This document shows positions 3,497 through 10,522 of a DNA stretch of 64,000 nt, piece after piece. The position numbers and the translations under genes were made by a program. Within the stretch, counting starts at the first letter, position 1; every line of letters starts with the position of its first letter. The DNA is from Cloacibacillus porcorum (GTDB lineage Bacteria > Synergistota > Synergistia > Synergistales > Synergistaceae): positions 3,250,219-3,314,218 of the forward strand of contig NZ_CP016757.1 in NCBI RefSeq assembly GCF_001701045.1. The letters are read 5' to 3'. Below the pieces are notes generated by a model. That model searched no databases. It worked only from the letters and a program-made list of their open reading frames with translations, and was not told where the DNA came from.

Positions 3497-3940
3497 ATGC
3501 GTAAACGTAAAACGGAAGAAAGAATAAGAGCAATTGAGATGCACAAACAGGGAATTCCACGAAGGCGGATTGCTGAAGAACTTGGTGTTAGTCCTGATTC
3601 TATTAAAACATGGATATCTTTATATAAGAGCGGACAGAAGGACTTACTGGATGATACAAGGAAAAAAAGAACCTACAGCAAGGCTGTAAAACTTGAAGCT
3701 GTTTCGGCTCATTTAGAAGAGGGACGTACTATGGTAGATGTTACCTCATCTTTTAACATTTCAAGTCCCTCTCTTTTAAGACGATGGTGTAAGGAATTTA
3801 TCGAACAAGGGGATATTTCTAGTTCAAAACGTGACTGTCCAGATAAGAAATTGGAAGTTACAAATAGCATAGAAAAGATCAAAGAGCTGGAAATGCAGGT
3901 CGACGTATTAAAAAAAGCCTTAGAGCTGCAAAGGTGGTGA
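3497..3940 (+). CDS. IS3-family transposase OrfA with two helix-turn-helix segments
   Basis: A 147-residue protein behind AAGGGGGATC and starting at ATG. It has one N-terminal helix-turn-helix (RRRIAEELGVSPDSIKTW) and a second around residues 70-95 (VTSSFNISSPSLLRRW), followed by a coiled-coil-like tail, the arrangement seen in IS150-group OrfA proteins. An A7 run at 3910-3916 lies in the correct register for -1 frameshifting into orfB, which overlaps its end. Confidence 0.85.
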   Translation: MRKRKTEERIRAIEMHKQGIPRRRIAEELGVSPDSIKTWISLYKSGQKDLLDDTRKKRTYSKAVKLEAVSAHLEEGRTMVDVTSSFNISSPSLLRRWCKEFIEQGDISSSKRDCPDKKLEVTNSIEKIKELEMQVDVLKKALELQRW

Positions 3941-4806
3941 TAGAAAGAAATATTAAATACAGAATCATTTTTGAATTTTCAACAAAACATTCTGTCTGTG
4001 GAATGTGTAGATTTTTGTCCGTATCACGCTCTGCATACTACAGTTGGCTAAAGCGGCGTGGAATGGAAGATAAAGACGGTCCTCTCATAGAAGCAATAAG
4101 AACGGGACAGGATATCAACAAAAACACTTATGGGTACAGGCGAATGACTCTGTGGCTCAACAACTTCATTGGCATTCATGTAAACAATAAGAGGGTAAGG
4201 CGTGTTATGAAAAAAGCAGGACTTCAAGCGGAAATAAGAAAAAAGAAAAAGTTTAAAGTGATGTCAGGAAATATCCACAGCTATGAGAATATCCTGAACA
4301 GAGAATTTCGTTCCGACAGACCAAACCAGAAACTGGTTACTGATATCACATATATACGAACAAAAAAGGGTAATATATTCCTCTCCATGATAAAAGATCT
4401 CTTTGATAATTCCATACAGGGATATCAAATCAGTCGTAATAATAATATTAAGTTAGTAACCGATACATTGAAGAAAGCATTTGAAAACAATAATAAGGTG
4501 GTCGCTGATGGACCAATCCTCCACAGCGACCAGGGGTTTCAATATACAAGCCATGCATATTTCAACCTGACACAAAGATACGGACTCAAGGTCTCGATGT
4601 CAAGGAAAGGAAATTGTTTGGATAATGCCTGTGCAGAAAACTTCTTTAGTCACATTAAATCAGAACTCGTCAACCGAGTAAAATGGGAGAACTACGAGGA
4701 GGCTAAAGATGCTATAGACGAATATATAAGGTATTATAATAACGACAGGATACAGATAAAATTGAAAAAGGCTCCGATGCAATATCGAAGTCTCTTTATT
4801 GAATAA
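3916..4806 (+). CDS. IS3-family DDE transposase OrfB
   Basis: The -1 frame is open from the A7 slip site; a free-standing GTG start lies at 3934, overlapping orfA by seven bases. The protein shows an HTH_21-like segment (TYGYRRMTLWL) and a complete rve core: Asp in VTDITYI, Asp in LHSDQGFQY, and Glu in NACAENFFSHIKSEL. The C-terminal segment YYNNDRIQIKLKKAPMQYR is typical of the family. Everything needed for transposition appears intact. Confidence 0.88.
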   Translation, partial: SLRAAKVVIERNIKYRIIFEFSTKHSVCGMCRFLSVSRSAYYSWLKRRGMEDKDGPLIEAIRTGQDINKNTYGYRRMTLWLNNFIGIHVNNKRVRRVMKKAGLQAEIRKKKKFKVMSGNIHSYENILNREFRSDRPNQKLVTDITYIRTKKGNIFLSMIKDLFDNSIQGYQISRNNNIKLVTDTLKKAFENNNKVVADGPILHSDQGFQYTSHAYFNLTQRYGLKVSMSRKGNCLDNACAENFFSHIKSELVNRVKWENYEEAKDAIDEYIRYYNNDRIQIKLKKAPMQYRSLFIE

Positions 4807-6689: not shown

Positions 6690-7700
6690 ATGAAACGTGT
6701 AATACACGAAATCGCCGCCGCGGCGGTCCTTTCGCTCTTCCTGCTCCCCGCCGGAGCCGCTTTAGCCTGCACATGGGCCGTTTACAGCGGAGGCACGTCG
6801 TCTGTCGTAGCACGGACTATGGACTGGTATTCCGACGACGGCGCCGTAGTCGAAGGACACGGAAGGAATGTGGCGGTGAAGGCGGCCGACACCCCCAACG
6901 CGCTGGAGTATAAGTCAAAATATGCGAGCATTCAGATCAGAGGCGGCGTCTCCGGCCTCGTTTCGGAGGCGATGAATGAAAAGGGGCTCCAGTGCAGCCT
7001 GCTCTTCCTTGACGGTTCGCAGCTGCCGGTACCGTCGCCGCAGCACAGGGACGTCGGCATCGCCAATTTCGTCAGCTATATCGTCTCCAACTTCGCGACC
7101 GTGAACGAGGCTCTCGCCGCCCTGCCGTCGATCAACGTCTATCCGGCCGCGTTCCATAGTATTCAGGGTTCCAATGGTCCGCGGCTTGACTATGAGACGC
7201 AGAATACCCCTCTCCACTTCGCCGTTGCCGACACCGGCGGAGACCGGGCGGTGATCGAGTTTATAGACGGCGCTGTGAAGGTCTACCACGGCAGCCAATA
7301 CGACGCGATGACCAACGAGCCGCATTACGACGTGCATCTCTACCTAGACAGCGCGGGATACCAGCCGAACGGCACCAATCTGCCCGTCGACCGCCGCGCG
7401 AGGGCCAGAATGTATCTCGCCGATATGCGGGGGCGTAAAGTGGACGGCAGCCCGCGCACGCTGCTCGCGATGCGCGGCCTTCTGGCCACGGTCAACGCCG
7501 GAACGGAGCAGGTCGACCCGGTGGAGAACGAAGTTTACCCGACAATGTGGTCGGTGCTGGCCGATCAGGAGAACCGGGCCTACTACCTCTCGCGGTATAA
7601 CACCTGGAACACGGAGTATTATGATTTTTCCATGTTCCCCTTTGAGCAGGCCAAGGTCGTGAAGCTCAAAACCACCGCGAAGCCTCCCGTCATCAAATAA
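6690..7700 (+). CDS. Exported linear-amide C-N hydrolase, choloylglycine hydrolase family
   Basis: A 336-residue Ntn-hydrolase start preceded by GGAGG. The signal peptide ends ALA and the next residue is Cys27, so signal cleavage itself would expose the N-terminal nucleophile. The following CTWAVYSGG and ARTMDW segments match the Cys-Arg-Asp pattern of penicillin V acylase and bile-salt hydrolase proteins. Family members hydrolyse amide bonds of bile-salt conjugates, penicillin V or acyl-homoserine lactones; the substrate cannot be set from sequence. Its export to the periplasm resembles Gram-negative penicillin-acylase-like members more than cytosolic gut bile-salt hydrolases. A lipoprotein reading of the Cys is less likely because the preceding residues are not a good lipobox. 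Confidence 0.85.
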   Translation: MKRVIHEIAAAAVLSLFLLPAGAALACTWAVYSGGTSSVVARTMDWYSDDGAVVEGHGRNVAVKAADTPNALEYKSKYASIQIRGGVSGLVSEAMNEKGLQCSLLFLDGSQLPVPSPQHRDVGIANFVSYIVSNFATVNEALAALPSINVYPAAFHSIQGSNGPRLDYETQNTPLHFAVADTGGDRAVIEFIDGAVKVYHGSQYDAMTNEPHYDVHLYLDSAGYQPNGTNLPVDRRARARMYLADMRGRKVDGSPRTLLAMRGLLATVNAGTEQVDPVENEVYPTMWSVLADQENRAYYLSRYNTWNTEYYDFSMFPFEQAKVVKLKTTAKPPVIK

Positions 7701-7738: not shown

Positions 7739-7767
7739 TTGACAATCGCGCCAATCATTACTACAAT
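7739..7767 (+). promoter_or_regulatory. Sigma-70 promoter of the met leader/metNIQ transcript
   Basis: TTGACA at 7739-7744 and TACAAT at 7762-7767 with a 17-bp spacer: a near-consensus promoter. It starts 39 bp after the hydrolase stop and drives the leader peptide and, if transcription passes the terminator at 7908-7938, metNIQ. Confidence 0.88.
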
Positions 7768-7798
7768 GTGTCCCATATTTGGAGAAGGAGGAGCAAAC

Positions 7799-7885
7799 AT
7801 GAGATCTAGTACCGGCTATTTTGCCAACAACATGATGATGTGCATGTACACGCAGGGCTCCTCTTGTGATTTACCGGACGCCTAG
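7799..7885 (+). CDS. Met-rich leader peptide, 28 residues
   Basis: A short gene with a very strong ribosome site (GGAGAAGGAGGAGC) and ATG start, placed between the promoter and the rho-independent terminator ahead of metNIQ. Codons 12-16 read Met-Met-Met-Cys-Met (7832-7846), and a second Cys follows at codon 23. Four Met in five codons in front of a methionine importer is the hallmark of a leader whose ribosome stalls when charged Met-tRNA is scarce. The peptide itself probably has no other job. Leader peptides of this kind are known for trp, his, leu and others; I know of no established case for metNIQ. Confidence 0.8.
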   Translation: MRSSTGYFANNMMMCMYTQGSSCDLPDA

Positions 7886-7938
7886 AGCGTCGCGCGCGTA
7901 AAATCATAAGACCGAGCCTTGAGGCTCGGTCTTTTTTT
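7853..7938 (+). promoter_or_regulatory. Candidate methionine attenuator (antiterminator plus terminator)
   Basis: The terminator stem is 7908-7918 with 7923-7933. The segment CAGGGCTC (7853-7860), inside the leader coding region just after the Met codons, can pair with GAGCCTTG (7914-7921), which is most of the terminator's left arm (eight pairs, one G-U). A ribosome held at Met codons 12-14 would leave 7853-7860 free and favour the antiterminator. A further stem GACGC/GCGTC (7877-7881/7887-7891) overlaps the leader stop and could belong to the alternative fold. The pairing was found by eye. Confidence 0.65.
7908..7938 (+). terminator. Rho-independent terminator upstream of metN
   Basis: AAGACCGAGCC, loop TTGA, GGCTCGGTCTT, then a T run to 7938: an 11-bp perfect stem. 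It lies 51 bp before the metN start and after the leader peptide stop, so it would end most transcripts unless antitermination occurs. Confidence 0.93.
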
Positions 7939-7989: not shown

Positions 7990-8958
7990 ATGATCGAAAT
8001 CAATAATCTGGGGAAATATTTCGGCGACCATAAGGTGCTCTCCGACATCTCCCTTGAGGTGAAGAAGGGCGACGTATTCGGCATCGTCGGCCATTCCGGG
8101 GCGGGAAAATCGACACTCCTACGCTGCCTCAACGGCCTCGAAAGCTACAGCGAGGGCAGCGTGCGCGTCGGCGGCAAGGAGGTAAAGGACCTTGACGAAA
8201 GTGAGCTGAAGCTCCTGCGCCGCGATATGGGGATGATATTCCAGAACTTCAACCTCATGAACAGAAAGGATGTCTATGAGAACATCCTCTTCCCTCTCAA
8301 GGTATGGGGCACCCCTAAAAACGAGGCGGCGGCGCGCGCCGACGAGCTGCTAGAACTGGTCGGCCTCACGGGGAAAAAGCATGAGAAGGTGCGCAACCTG
8401 AGCGGCGGGCAGAAGCAGCGCGTCGGTATCGCCAGGGCGCTCGCGCTGAACCCCGAGATACTGCTCTGCGACGAAGCCACCTCGGCGCTCGACCCCAAGA
8501 CGACGATCTCGATCCTCGAACTGCTGATGGATATCAATAAAAAACTCAACGTCACCATCATCGTCGTCACACACCAGATGGAGGTCGTGAAGATGATCTG
8601 CAACAAGGTCATCATCCTTGACGGCGGCGAGATCGTCGCCTCCGGCGAGACCGACAAGCTCTTCCTCGCCCCCGGCGAGGAGCTGCGCAAGCTCATCACC
8701 GACGACTACGCCGTCATCCCCTCCGGCACCAACATCCGCCTGATGTTCCCACGCGAGGTCGCCAACGACAGCATCATCACGAATATGGCGCGCGACCTTG
8801 ACATCAACTTTTCTATCGTCGGCGGGCGCATCGAAAAGTACCGCGAGACGGTGATGGGCTTCCTCATCATAAACGTCGCCGACGAGGACGTGGCGAATAT
8901 CGAAAAATGGCTTGGAGAAAACAAGATGTACTGGGAGGTAATGAAAGATGGGCAGTGA
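7990..8958 (+). CDS. metN: Methionine ABC transporter ATP-binding protein
   Basis: A 322-residue ATPase starting at the ATG with GAAGGATGG upstream; an upstream GTG at 7939 lies against the terminator T run and is rejected. Walker A GHSGAGKST (near residue 37), signature LSGGQKQR, Walker B ILLCDEATSALD and a His-loop VVTHQ are intact. The C-terminal about 75 residues form a NIL-type domain (NIRLMFP ... VGGRIEKYR), the regulatory methionine-binding domain of MetN proteins. It overlaps metI by 11 bases and pairs with it in the inner membrane. Regulated, by inference, through the Met-codon leader and terminator upstream. Confidence 0.95.
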   Translation: MIEINNLGKYFGDHKVLSDISLEVKKGDVFGIVGHSGAGKSTLLRCLNGLESYSEGSVRVGGKEVKDLDESELKLLRRDMGMIFQNFNLMNRKDVYENILFPLKVWGTPKNEAAARADELLELVGLTGKKHEKVRNLSGGQKQRVGIARALALNPEILLCDEATSALDPKTTISILELLMDINKKLNVTIIVVTHQMEVVKMICNKVIILDGGEIVASGETDKLFLAPGEELRKLITDDYAVIPSGTNIRLMFPREVANDSIITNMARDLDINFSIVGGRIEKYRETVMGFLIINVADEDVANIEKWLGENKMYWEVMKDGQ

Positions 8959-9583
8959 GCTTGTAGCGGCGCTTTGGGAAACTATATATATGGTGGTCGT
9001 CTCCACCTTCTTCTCGGGGATATTCGGCTCCGGCGTGGCGATCCTGATGATAATCACGGGGCCGAACGGACTGAAGCCCAACAAGGCCATATACGGCGTA
9101 CTCGACGTGGCGGTAAACCTGCTCCGCTCCTTCCCCTTCATCATCCTGCTGATCGCGATTATCCCGCTGACACGCCTCATCGCCGGCACCTCTATCGGCA
9201 GCACCGCCTCGATAGTGCCGCTGACGATCGCGGCGACACCCTTCGTGGCGCGCCTCATGGAGGGCAGCCTGCTTGAGGTCGACCGCGGCGTCGTGGAGGC
9301 GGCAAGGTCATTCGGGGCCTCCACCACGCAGATCATCTTCGGCGTGATGATAAAAGAGGCGATGCCCGCGATAGTCCTCAACTGGGCGATCGTCGCGATA
9401 AACCTTCTCGGCTACTCCGCGATGGCGGGAGTCGTCGGCGGGGGCGGACTCGGCGATCTTGCGATAAAGTACGGCTACAACCGTTTCCAGACAGACGTAA
9501 TGGTATATTCCGTCGCGATCCTCATCGTGATCGTCCAGGTGATCCAGTACGCCGGAAACTATGTCTACGAGAAGATCAGATAA
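8948..9583 (+). CDS. metI: Methionine ABC transporter permease
   Basis: A 211-residue protein with about five membrane segments and the EAA loop (VVEAARSFGAS) that docks with the ATPase. Length and sequence fit MetI of the MetNIQ importer. Its start lies inside the end of metN, showing translational coupling. Three short hairpins follow the stop before metQ. Confidence 0.95.
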   Translation: MGSELVAALWETIYMVVVSTFFSGIFGSGVAILMIITGPNGLKPNKAIYGVLDVAVNLLRSFPFIILLIAIIPLTRLIAGTSIGSTASIVPLTIAATPFVARLMEGSLLEVDRGVVEAARSFGASTTQIIFGVMIKEAMPAIVLNWAIVAINLLGYSAMAGVVGGGGLGDLAIKYGYNRFQTDVMVYSVAILIVIVQVIQYAGNYVYEKIR

Positions 9584-9742: not shown

Positions 9743-10522
9743 ATGAAGAAAATCGCACTCGCACTTCTCGCCGCACTCATCATCCCCGCCGCCGCCTTCG
9801 CCGCCGGCAAAGAGATCAAGGTCGGAGTCACCCCCTTCCCGCACAAGGATCTCATGAACGTCGTCAAGGAGCTCGTCGCGAAGGACGGCTATGACCTCAA
9901 GATCGTCGAATTCACCGATTACGTGACGCCGAACACCGCGCTCGCCGAAAAGGCCCTCGACGCGAACTTCTTCCAGCACATCCCCTATCTCGAAAACACC
10001 AACAAAGAGAGGGGCTATGATCTCGTTTGGGTCGCGAAGATACACATCGAGCCGCTGGGACTCTACTCAAAGAAGATCAAGAAGATAGACGAACTCAAGA
10101 ACGGCGCGCAGATAGCGATCCCCAACGACGCGACGAACTGCGCCCGCGCCCTGCGCCTGCTTGAGAAGAGCGGCCTTATCAAGGTCAAAGCCGGAGAGCT
10201 CGTGACGGCGAAGGACATCACCGAGAACCCGAAGAACCTCAAGATCCGCGAACTTGATGCCGCCCAGCTTCCCCGCACCCTTCAGGATGTGGAGGCCGCC
10301 GTCATCAACACCAACTTCGCCGGCGAAGCGGGCCTCATCCCCGCCAAAGACGCGATCGTGATCGAGGGCAAGGACTCTCCCTACGCGAACGTCCTCGTCG
10401 TGCGCGGCGCGGATAAGGACAGCCCCGCAGTGAAGGCGCTCGTGAAGGCCTCCAATTCCAAAGAGGTCAAAGACTACATCAACAAAAATCTCGTGCCGAA
10501 GGGCATTGTCCCCGCGTTCTAA
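9743..10522 (+). CDS. metQ: Methionine-binding protein, NlpA/MetQ family
   Basis: A 259-residue protein behind AAAGGAGAG. A signal peptide ends AFA at about residue 20, and the mature protein begins AGKEIKVGVTPFPH with the NlpA-family segments DYVTPNTALAEKALDANFFQH and NTNFAGEAGL. It should bind D- or L-methionine and deliver it to MetNI. Unlike most MetQ proteins there is no lipobox Cys, so it is predicted to be a soluble periplasmic protein. Last gene of the operon, followed by a strong terminator. Confidence 0.93.
   Translation: MKKIALALLAALIIPAAAFAAGKEIKVGVTPFPHKDLMNVVKELVAKDGYDLKIVEFTDYVTPNTALAEKALDANFFQHIPYLENTNKERGYDLVWVAKIHIEPLGLYSKKIKKIDELKNGAQIAIPNDATNCARALRLLEKSGLIKVKAGELVTAKDITENPKNLKIRELDAAQLPRTLQDVEAAVINTNFAGEAGLIPAKDAIVIEGKDSPYANVLVVRGADKDSPAVKALVKASNSKEVKDYINKNLVPKGIVPAF

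Follow-up and report, generated by a model that had tools for sequence, protein, structure and literature searches.

The window analysed here, a stretch of 64,000 nucleotides from Cloacibacillus porcorum, carries metNIQ, the genes for a methionine ABC transporter, preceded by a leader of about 160 nt that is wholly explained by a short reading frame and an RNA switch. The features at the locus are as follows:

3497-4806 of the window: IS3-type insertion sequence in two frames, a helix-turn-helix frame and an integrase-core transposase
6690-7700, co-directional with metN: choloylglycine-hydrolase-family protein (Pfam PF02275) with an apparent signal peptide, upstream of the leader
7739-7767, + strand: sigma-70-type promoter TTGACA-17-TACAAT, 11/12 consensus matches
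7785-7794, + strand: Shine-Dalgarno AAGGAGGAGC of the leader peptide, doubling as segment 1
7799-7885, + strand: leader peptide gene, 28 codons, ATG at 7799, stop TAG at 7883-7885, product MRSSTGYFANNMMMCMYTQGSSCDLPDA
7832-7846, + strand: sensor codons ATG ATG ATG TGC ATG (Met-Met-Met-Cys-Met), codons 12-16
7853-7872, + strand: segment 2, the 5' side of the antiterminator, made up of CAGGGCTC (7853-7860) and TCTTGTGATTT (7862-7872), as indicated by folding, duplexes and covariation
7877-7891, + strand: hairpin GACGC-CTAGA-GCGTC, the antiterminator tip, with the leader stop codon in its loop
7901-7921, + strand: segment 3, the 3' side of the antiterminator, made up of AAATCATAAGA (7901-7911) and GAGCCTTG (7914-7921), overlapping the terminator left arm
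7908-7938, + strand: intrinsic terminator, 11-bp stem 7908-7918/7923-7933, T run to 7938
7990-8958, + strand: metN, ATPase of the methionine ABC transporter, with a NIL domain (TIGR02314 is the best NCBIfam match, E 5.9e-86, below the curated cut-off; Pfam ABC_tran and NIL above cut-off)
8948-9583, + strand: metI, permease (MetI NF008049, E 6.6e-59, slightly below cut-off)
9743-10522, + strand: metQ, substrate-binding protein (TIGR00363 above cut-off, E 1.6e-71)

The promoter, ribosome site, 28-codon gene, Met-Met-Met-Cys-Met block, 11-bp terminator and metN, all of which had been named in an initial annotation of this DNA, are each present at the bases assigned to them there.

Three mutually exclusive pairings of the metN leader

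The leader can form three mutually exclusive pairings: its ribosome site with segment 2 (7786-7794 with 7857-7865), segment 2 with the terminator left arm (the antiterminator), and the terminator. The segment from 7851 to 7922 folds as one long hairpin (-33.6 kcal/mol, z = -5.3 versus shuffles), in which CAGGGCTC/GAGCCTTG is the outer helix, TCTTGTGATTT/AAATCATAAGA the inner helix, and the stop-codon hairpin (7877-7881/7887-7891) sits at the tip. The pairing of CAGGGCTC with GAGCCTTG had been predicted by the initial annotation and holds up as part of a larger duplex than the one described there, while the placement of GAGCCTTG wholly within the terminator left arm does not, as the arm spans 7908-7918 and GAGCCTTG includes three loop bases.

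In models of a transcript ending at 7921, where polymerase would have completed segment 3, the antiterminator had a probability of 0.98 when the RNA was ribosome-free and of 0.99 with a ribosome stalled at the Met codons, and it dropped from 0.98 to 0.50 when the footprint of a ribosome at the stop codon was masked. The preference of the 7921-ended transcript for the antiterminator is therefore also seen without any ribosome, a point against the explanation that we favour below. The complete transcript favours the ribosome site/segment 2 pairing and the terminator together, and at equilibrium the modelled probability of the terminator was 0.92 without a ribosome, 0.78 with a stalled one and 0.97 with one at the stop codon. 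As the terminator wins at equilibrium for every simulated ribosome position, antitermination must be kinetic, decided during transcription.

Met codons and switch are conserved together before metN

Orthologous metN genes were gathered from 61 genomes and a public genome collection, and 18 non-redundant leaders from the family of the host share the elements. The promoter hexamers recur at the equivalent place in orthologous leaders, and all 18 have an in-frame homolog of the leader peptide gene with a ribosome site as well as the duplex between this Shine-Dalgarno and segment 2. The 12 bases ATGATGATGTGC, which encode MMMC, are 100% identical in 18/18 leaders, versus a mean pairwise identity across the 18 of 43% in the 24 bases on their 5' side and 48% in the 12 bases on their 3' side. 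GGCTCCTCT, which codes for Gly-Ser-Ser, is identical in 17 of the 18 with zero synonymous changes, and this points to RNA pairing, not the peptide, as the constraint. L018 is the exception: its segment 2 is GGTCCCC, and both partners have changed alongside, to GGGGA in the ribosome site and GGGATCC in the terminator arm.

In the family alignment (A2) 85.8% of antiterminator cells are paired versus 82.2% with shuffled partners (reached in 0/500 shuffles) and 25-47% when the alignment is slid; the covariation score is 0.220 versus 0.175 in shuffles (2/500), and the number of pairs changed on both sides was reached in 89/500 shuffles, all of these shuffle controls leaving shared ancestry in. These pair counts are positive but moderate because segment 2 barely varies inside the family. 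For the hairpin around the stop codon, 92.9% of cells are paired and two of five pairs have changed on both sides.

The leader is missing at two metN loci inside the family (L015 and L019), and none of the metN loci from other phyla (Desulfovibrio, Clostridium and Erysipelotrichaceae, L043-L067) has an ATG-triplet leader with the conserved segment; by eye, those of Clostridium have a SAM-box-like sequence instead. Where the leader occurs before metN, its Met codons and start codon are kept along with both the antiterminator and the terminator, the opposite of a terminator that is kept while the Met codons or the start codon are lost, which is the pattern that the initial annotation had set against its own reading.

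The switch belongs to a family found across Synergistota

A covariance model of the switch that includes the Met codons (R1) found matches in 51/188 Synergistota genomes at E<=0.01, mostly preceding metN, metQ, the O-acetylhomoserine sulfhydrylase gene (metY) or the homoserine acetyltransferase gene (metX). Two R1 matches carry Leu/Val/Ile codons within the same switch, suggesting that the switch is a general one. With a second model (R2), built from 35 leaders without the sensor codons and running from segment 2 through the terminator, matches were obtained in 151/188 Synergistota genomes and 60/63 genera at E<=0.1, with up to 17 matches per genome; counting the listed best E-values, 131/188 genomes have a match at E<=0.001. 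By comparison, a search of 299 control genomes from another phylum (the one to which the Clostridium-related genome G192 belongs) yielded 8 matches at E<=0.001, with no score above 30.6 bits, and 27 outgroup genomes gave weak matches only. Those matches outside Synergistota whose DNA was read had the appearance of gene-end terminators or chance matches, had no leader frame and were rejected. R2 thus describes a family that is specific to this lineage within the genomes sampled.

The phylum-wide R2 alignment was fitted on the terminator stem alone, of which 10/12 pairs have changed on both sides. RNAalifold recovered only the terminator from this alignment because segment 2 and its partner have no fixed register; duplex energies of true partners were therefore compared with those of permuted ones. 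The mean energy of the duplex between segment 2 and the terminator arm is -15.6 for true partners versus -12.9 (sd 0.24) for permuted ones (0/10000), and that of the Shine-Dalgarno/segment 2 duplex is -15.65 for cognate versus -13.51 (sd 0.24) for permuted partners (0/5000), shared ancestry inflating both tests. At the variable base X of GG-X-TCC in segment 2, the combinations with the terminator partner are G:C in 29 leaders, A:U in 22, C:G in 13, G:U in 10 and U:A in 3, with 3 unpaired. Compensatory change, which the initial annotation had proposed to look for in its two alternative stems, is found in the antiterminator and in the terminator, and segment 2 covaries with the ribosome site as well as with the terminator arm. 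In addition, segment 2 of a metY leader (L152), GGCAGAGCC, is unlike the family motif and can pair with both the ribosome site GGCTTTGC and the terminator arm GGCTCTGC, predicted pairings that provide independent support beyond the family motif.

Codon runs in the leader peptides follow the downstream gene

For 100 leaders aligned to R2, the peptide and the next gene were extracted by script and a 15-codon window before the switch was scored; the downstream genes were verified with NCBIfam and Pfam in representative cases and assigned from a sequence motif in the others. The sensor window of met-gene leaders (n=42) contains 30% Met and 10% Ile/Leu/Val, versus 1% Met and 63% Ile/Leu/Val in ilv/leu leaders (n=25). 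A Met run is present in 42/42 leaders of metN, metQ, metY or metX versus 3/58 others (Fisher p 5e-25), a comparison that is partly circular, since 37 of these 42 leaders were taken from, or match, the model with the Met codons; a fair test is limited to the met-gene leaders reached by R2 only, and 5/5 of these have a Met run. The three Met runs outside met-gene leaders precede an aspartokinase gene, whose pathway includes Met, and two genes without a family match. Leaders of aspartokinase/homoserine dehydrogenase genes (n=6) have Thr plus Met runs (for example AMTMTS), a threonine dehydratase leader has IIII, and Phe/Tyr runs precede arylacetate-CoA ligases (L212, L215, L231, L246, L254, L257 and L265). 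One and the same switch with codons matching the downstream pathway is what would be expected if the sensor is a ribosome that stalls at these codons.

The codon for Cys that directly follows the last Met run in 37/42 met leaders (7841-7843 in the window) is left unexplained by methionine sensing alone and counts against the explanation we favour. A variant of that explanation, in which the Met-Cys block would jointly sense a shortage of charged Met or Cys tRNA, accounts for it, and the sensor window includes Cys in 41/42 met leaders versus 9/25 ilv/leu leaders; the Streptomyces candidate discussed below likewise reads CMCRRMC (PMC8079986). We nonetheless consider joint sensing unlikely: five leaders have Arg, Gln or Pro in place of Cys, there are usually one or two Cys codons versus two to seven Met codons, and the genes controlled serve Met, not Cys.

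The invariance of MMMC and the apparent conservation of the C-terminal residues G-S-[SP] would also fit an arrest peptide, that is, a nascent chain that stalls the ribosome on free methionine, SAM or another ligand, as TnaC does, and thereby drives the same switch. We regard this as very improbable, as the residues preceding the Met run vary freely (43% identity), and the C-terminal conservation resides in the RNA, GGCTCCTCT lacking synonymous variation within the clade and changing together with its RNA partners. Moreover, at other genes the same switch comes with runs of Ile, Val, Leu, Thr or Phe/Tyr codons, which fits codon sensing instead.

SAM riboswitches, T-boxes and further switch leaders

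SAM riboswitches and Met T-boxes govern met genes elsewhere, and an unrecognised element of either kind could be in control at metN with the short frame being unimportant. The C. porcorum genome does have T-boxes, but all eight matches lie outside the window; Rfam families gave no match anywhere in the 64,000 nt, including RF00162 and RF00230, the SAM-I riboswitch (RF00162) had no match in the whole genome, and the leader is fully accounted for by frame and switch, which together leave this alternative scarcely credible. That the hairpin is a mere 3' terminator of the choloylglycine-hydrolase-family gene and the short frame fortuitous has next to nothing in its favour beyond that gene being co-directional, its end at 7700 and our finding no other terminator between it and metN; it was rejected since a near-consensus promoter separates gene and hairpin and the whole leader is kept with it before metN family-wide despite differing upstream DNA, its frame, Met run and alternative pairings being conserved and covarying.

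The C. porcorum genome has at least five switch leaders, three with Met codons:

window 7739-7938: metN leader
928070-928175: leader of a metQ paralog, peptide VYSASHISIMYMMMCAHCGSSPELTGA
near 3473803-3473881: metY leader, peptide VRNFSYMQMCMMMCDSGRATLRQ (weak model match, E 0.28, accepted on peptide, gene and pairings)
237287: ilvN-ilvC leader, peptide MRRDNLTSNVANIVVVVRIISSGSPEVAGA
G000:C1:2633592-2633680: leader (L269) of a 2-oxoacid:ferredoxin oxidoreductase gamma subunit gene, peptide MLRSTGTQNIIIIIINAAPPRRIGV

Elsewhere in the phylum the two kinds of element occur in tandem at some loci. Of 20 Met-leader loci examined in other families, 7 have a SAM-I riboswitch (71-89 bits) on the same strand, upstream of the Met attenuator (L144, at 201-301, and L149, L139, L148, L122, L123 and L125), and at the one locus inspected (L144) the riboswitch is followed by its own terminator. 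This arrangement suggests serial control by SAM and Met-tRNA. From these comparisons we think it likely that a single attenuator family extends across Synergistota, in which the switch is kept and the sensor codons are exchanged according to the regulated gene (Met, Ile/Leu/Val, Thr plus Met, Phe/Tyr or Ile), with met genes governed by charging of elongator tRNA-Met and, in some lineages, placed in series with a SAM riboswitch as a two-input SAM/Met-tRNA gate.

A model for control of metNIQ

The elements of the metNIQ leader, the way they are conserved and covary, the mutual exclusion of its folds and the codon-to-gene match have been established computationally. On this basis the leader is very probably a transcription attenuator that works through a translating ribosome and responds to charged elongator tRNA-Met; that the ribosome stalls, which way the response runs and that tRNA-Met charging is the signal are inferred. 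A ribosome would translate the leader peptide behind RNA polymerase and, when Met-tRNA is scarce, stall on Met codons 12-16, freeing segment 2 (7853-7872) for segment 3 (7901-7921), so that the antiterminator would form ahead of transcription of the terminator right arm and metNIQ would be read. When Met-tRNA is plentiful, the ribosome would reach the stop codon in the antiterminator tip and disrupt the antiterminator, giving way to the terminator. If the leader is untranslated or the ribosome is gone, pairing of the leader ribosome site with segment 2 would favour termination as well. The proposal of the initial annotation that a ribosome stalled on the Met codons causes antitermination gains support from conservation, covariation and the codon-to-gene match across the phylum. 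Its view that Met-tRNA may be sensed at the importer is likewise supported, though not as restricted to the importer, because the switch also precedes metQ paralogs, metY and metX.

Methionine genes are usually under the control of SAM riboswitches, Met T-boxes or MetJ. In the classical attenuators (trp, his, leu, thr, ilv and phe of enterobacteria) the leader peptide has the regulated amino acid in runs, segments 1-4 give rise to a mutually exclusive antiterminator and terminator, and a ribosome finishing at the stop codon blocks the antiterminator; to our knowledge, methionine has so far been missing from the amino acids with well-supported sensing by leader-peptide attenuation. The metN leader resembles these systems in having a leader codon run, exclusive folds and the same stop-codon placement, whereas it differs in its amino acid (Met), in its genes (the importer and metY/metX), in the use of the leader's own Shine-Dalgarno as segment 1 and in that one segment-2 sequence family serves many amino acids phylum-wide. 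By its predicted architecture it is a variant of classical ribosome-mediated attenuation. The SAM-I riboswitch (S box, RF00162) acts on the same genes as a Met attenuator and likewise has an intrinsic terminator at its end, but it senses SAM through an aptamer; a Met T-box (RF00230) would also sense uncharged tRNA-Met and control termination of met genes, but it binds the tRNA directly without translation.

The closest published case is in Streptomyces lividans TK24, where a candidate metL leader peptide precedes metNIQ and termination is unclear (PMC8079986). Like the frame in the metN leader, metL is short, contains Met and Cys codons and lies immediately upstream of metNIQ. Unlike it, metL is leaderless, has no more than two internal Met codons, which are not consecutive, and is followed by no clear terminator; the accessible part of that report presents neither conservation nor an antiterminator (PMC8079986). 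The suggestion of the initial annotation that such methionine control is undescribed thus has to yield to this earlier candidate, and it stands to the extent that neither a terminator nor an antiterminator has been resolved for the candidate. Ribosome-mediated attenuation outside Proteobacteria also includes leader attenuators of Actinobacteria (PMC1262725) and that of Mycobacterium ilvB1 (PMC13236596), but these serve other amino acids, and no conserved RNA structure was found upstream of Met operons in Actinobacteria (PMC1262725). Leader peptides are known in Proteobacteria and Actinobacteria, with a His case in Firmicutes (PMC2965389). In the open-access literature (most subscription papers lie outside this scope, and absence is not proof) no attenuator with Met codons and a resolved switch came up, nor did any description of a Met-codon attenuator in Synergistota or of a phylum-wide attenuator family. 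The metN leader thus offers a conserved, covarying and directly testable Met case that separates Met-tRNA sensing from SAM sensing, and the phylum-wide family is a natural codon-swap experiment. In a phylum with few experimental studies, this is nearly direct evidence that ribosome stalling acts as the sensor.

Sensor codons as functional annotation

The sensor codons are also usable as annotation, indicating the amino acid served by a downstream enzyme or transporter of unclear role. The Phe/Tyr leaders suggest that the arylacetate (phenylacetate-type) CoA ligases behind them serve aromatic amino-acid synthesis, not breakdown. The two proteins without NCBIfam or Pfam match that follow Met-run leaders at L121 (a hydrophobic protein of 399 residues) and L141 are candidates for unrecognised methionine-related genes, and a hydrophobic protein of about 385 residues behind Leu/Val/Ile leaders (L205, L236, L238, L255 and L261; the L205 copy has no family match) is a candidate branched-chain amino-acid transporter. 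In C. porcorum itself, the six Ile codons of the L269 leader come before the gene for the gamma subunit of a pyruvate/2-ketoisovalerate-type oxidoreductase, a hint that isoleucine may be made by reductive carboxylation. Mixed Thr/Met codons (AMTMTS, TITTMTT) are found in aspartokinase and homoserine dehydrogenase leaders at L208, L213, L216, L218, L250, L204 and L228. Finally, the 17 R2 matches of one genome (G043, family f8) include a Tyr/Phe/Trp-rich leader (L234), and its relative G052 has a similar one (L237).
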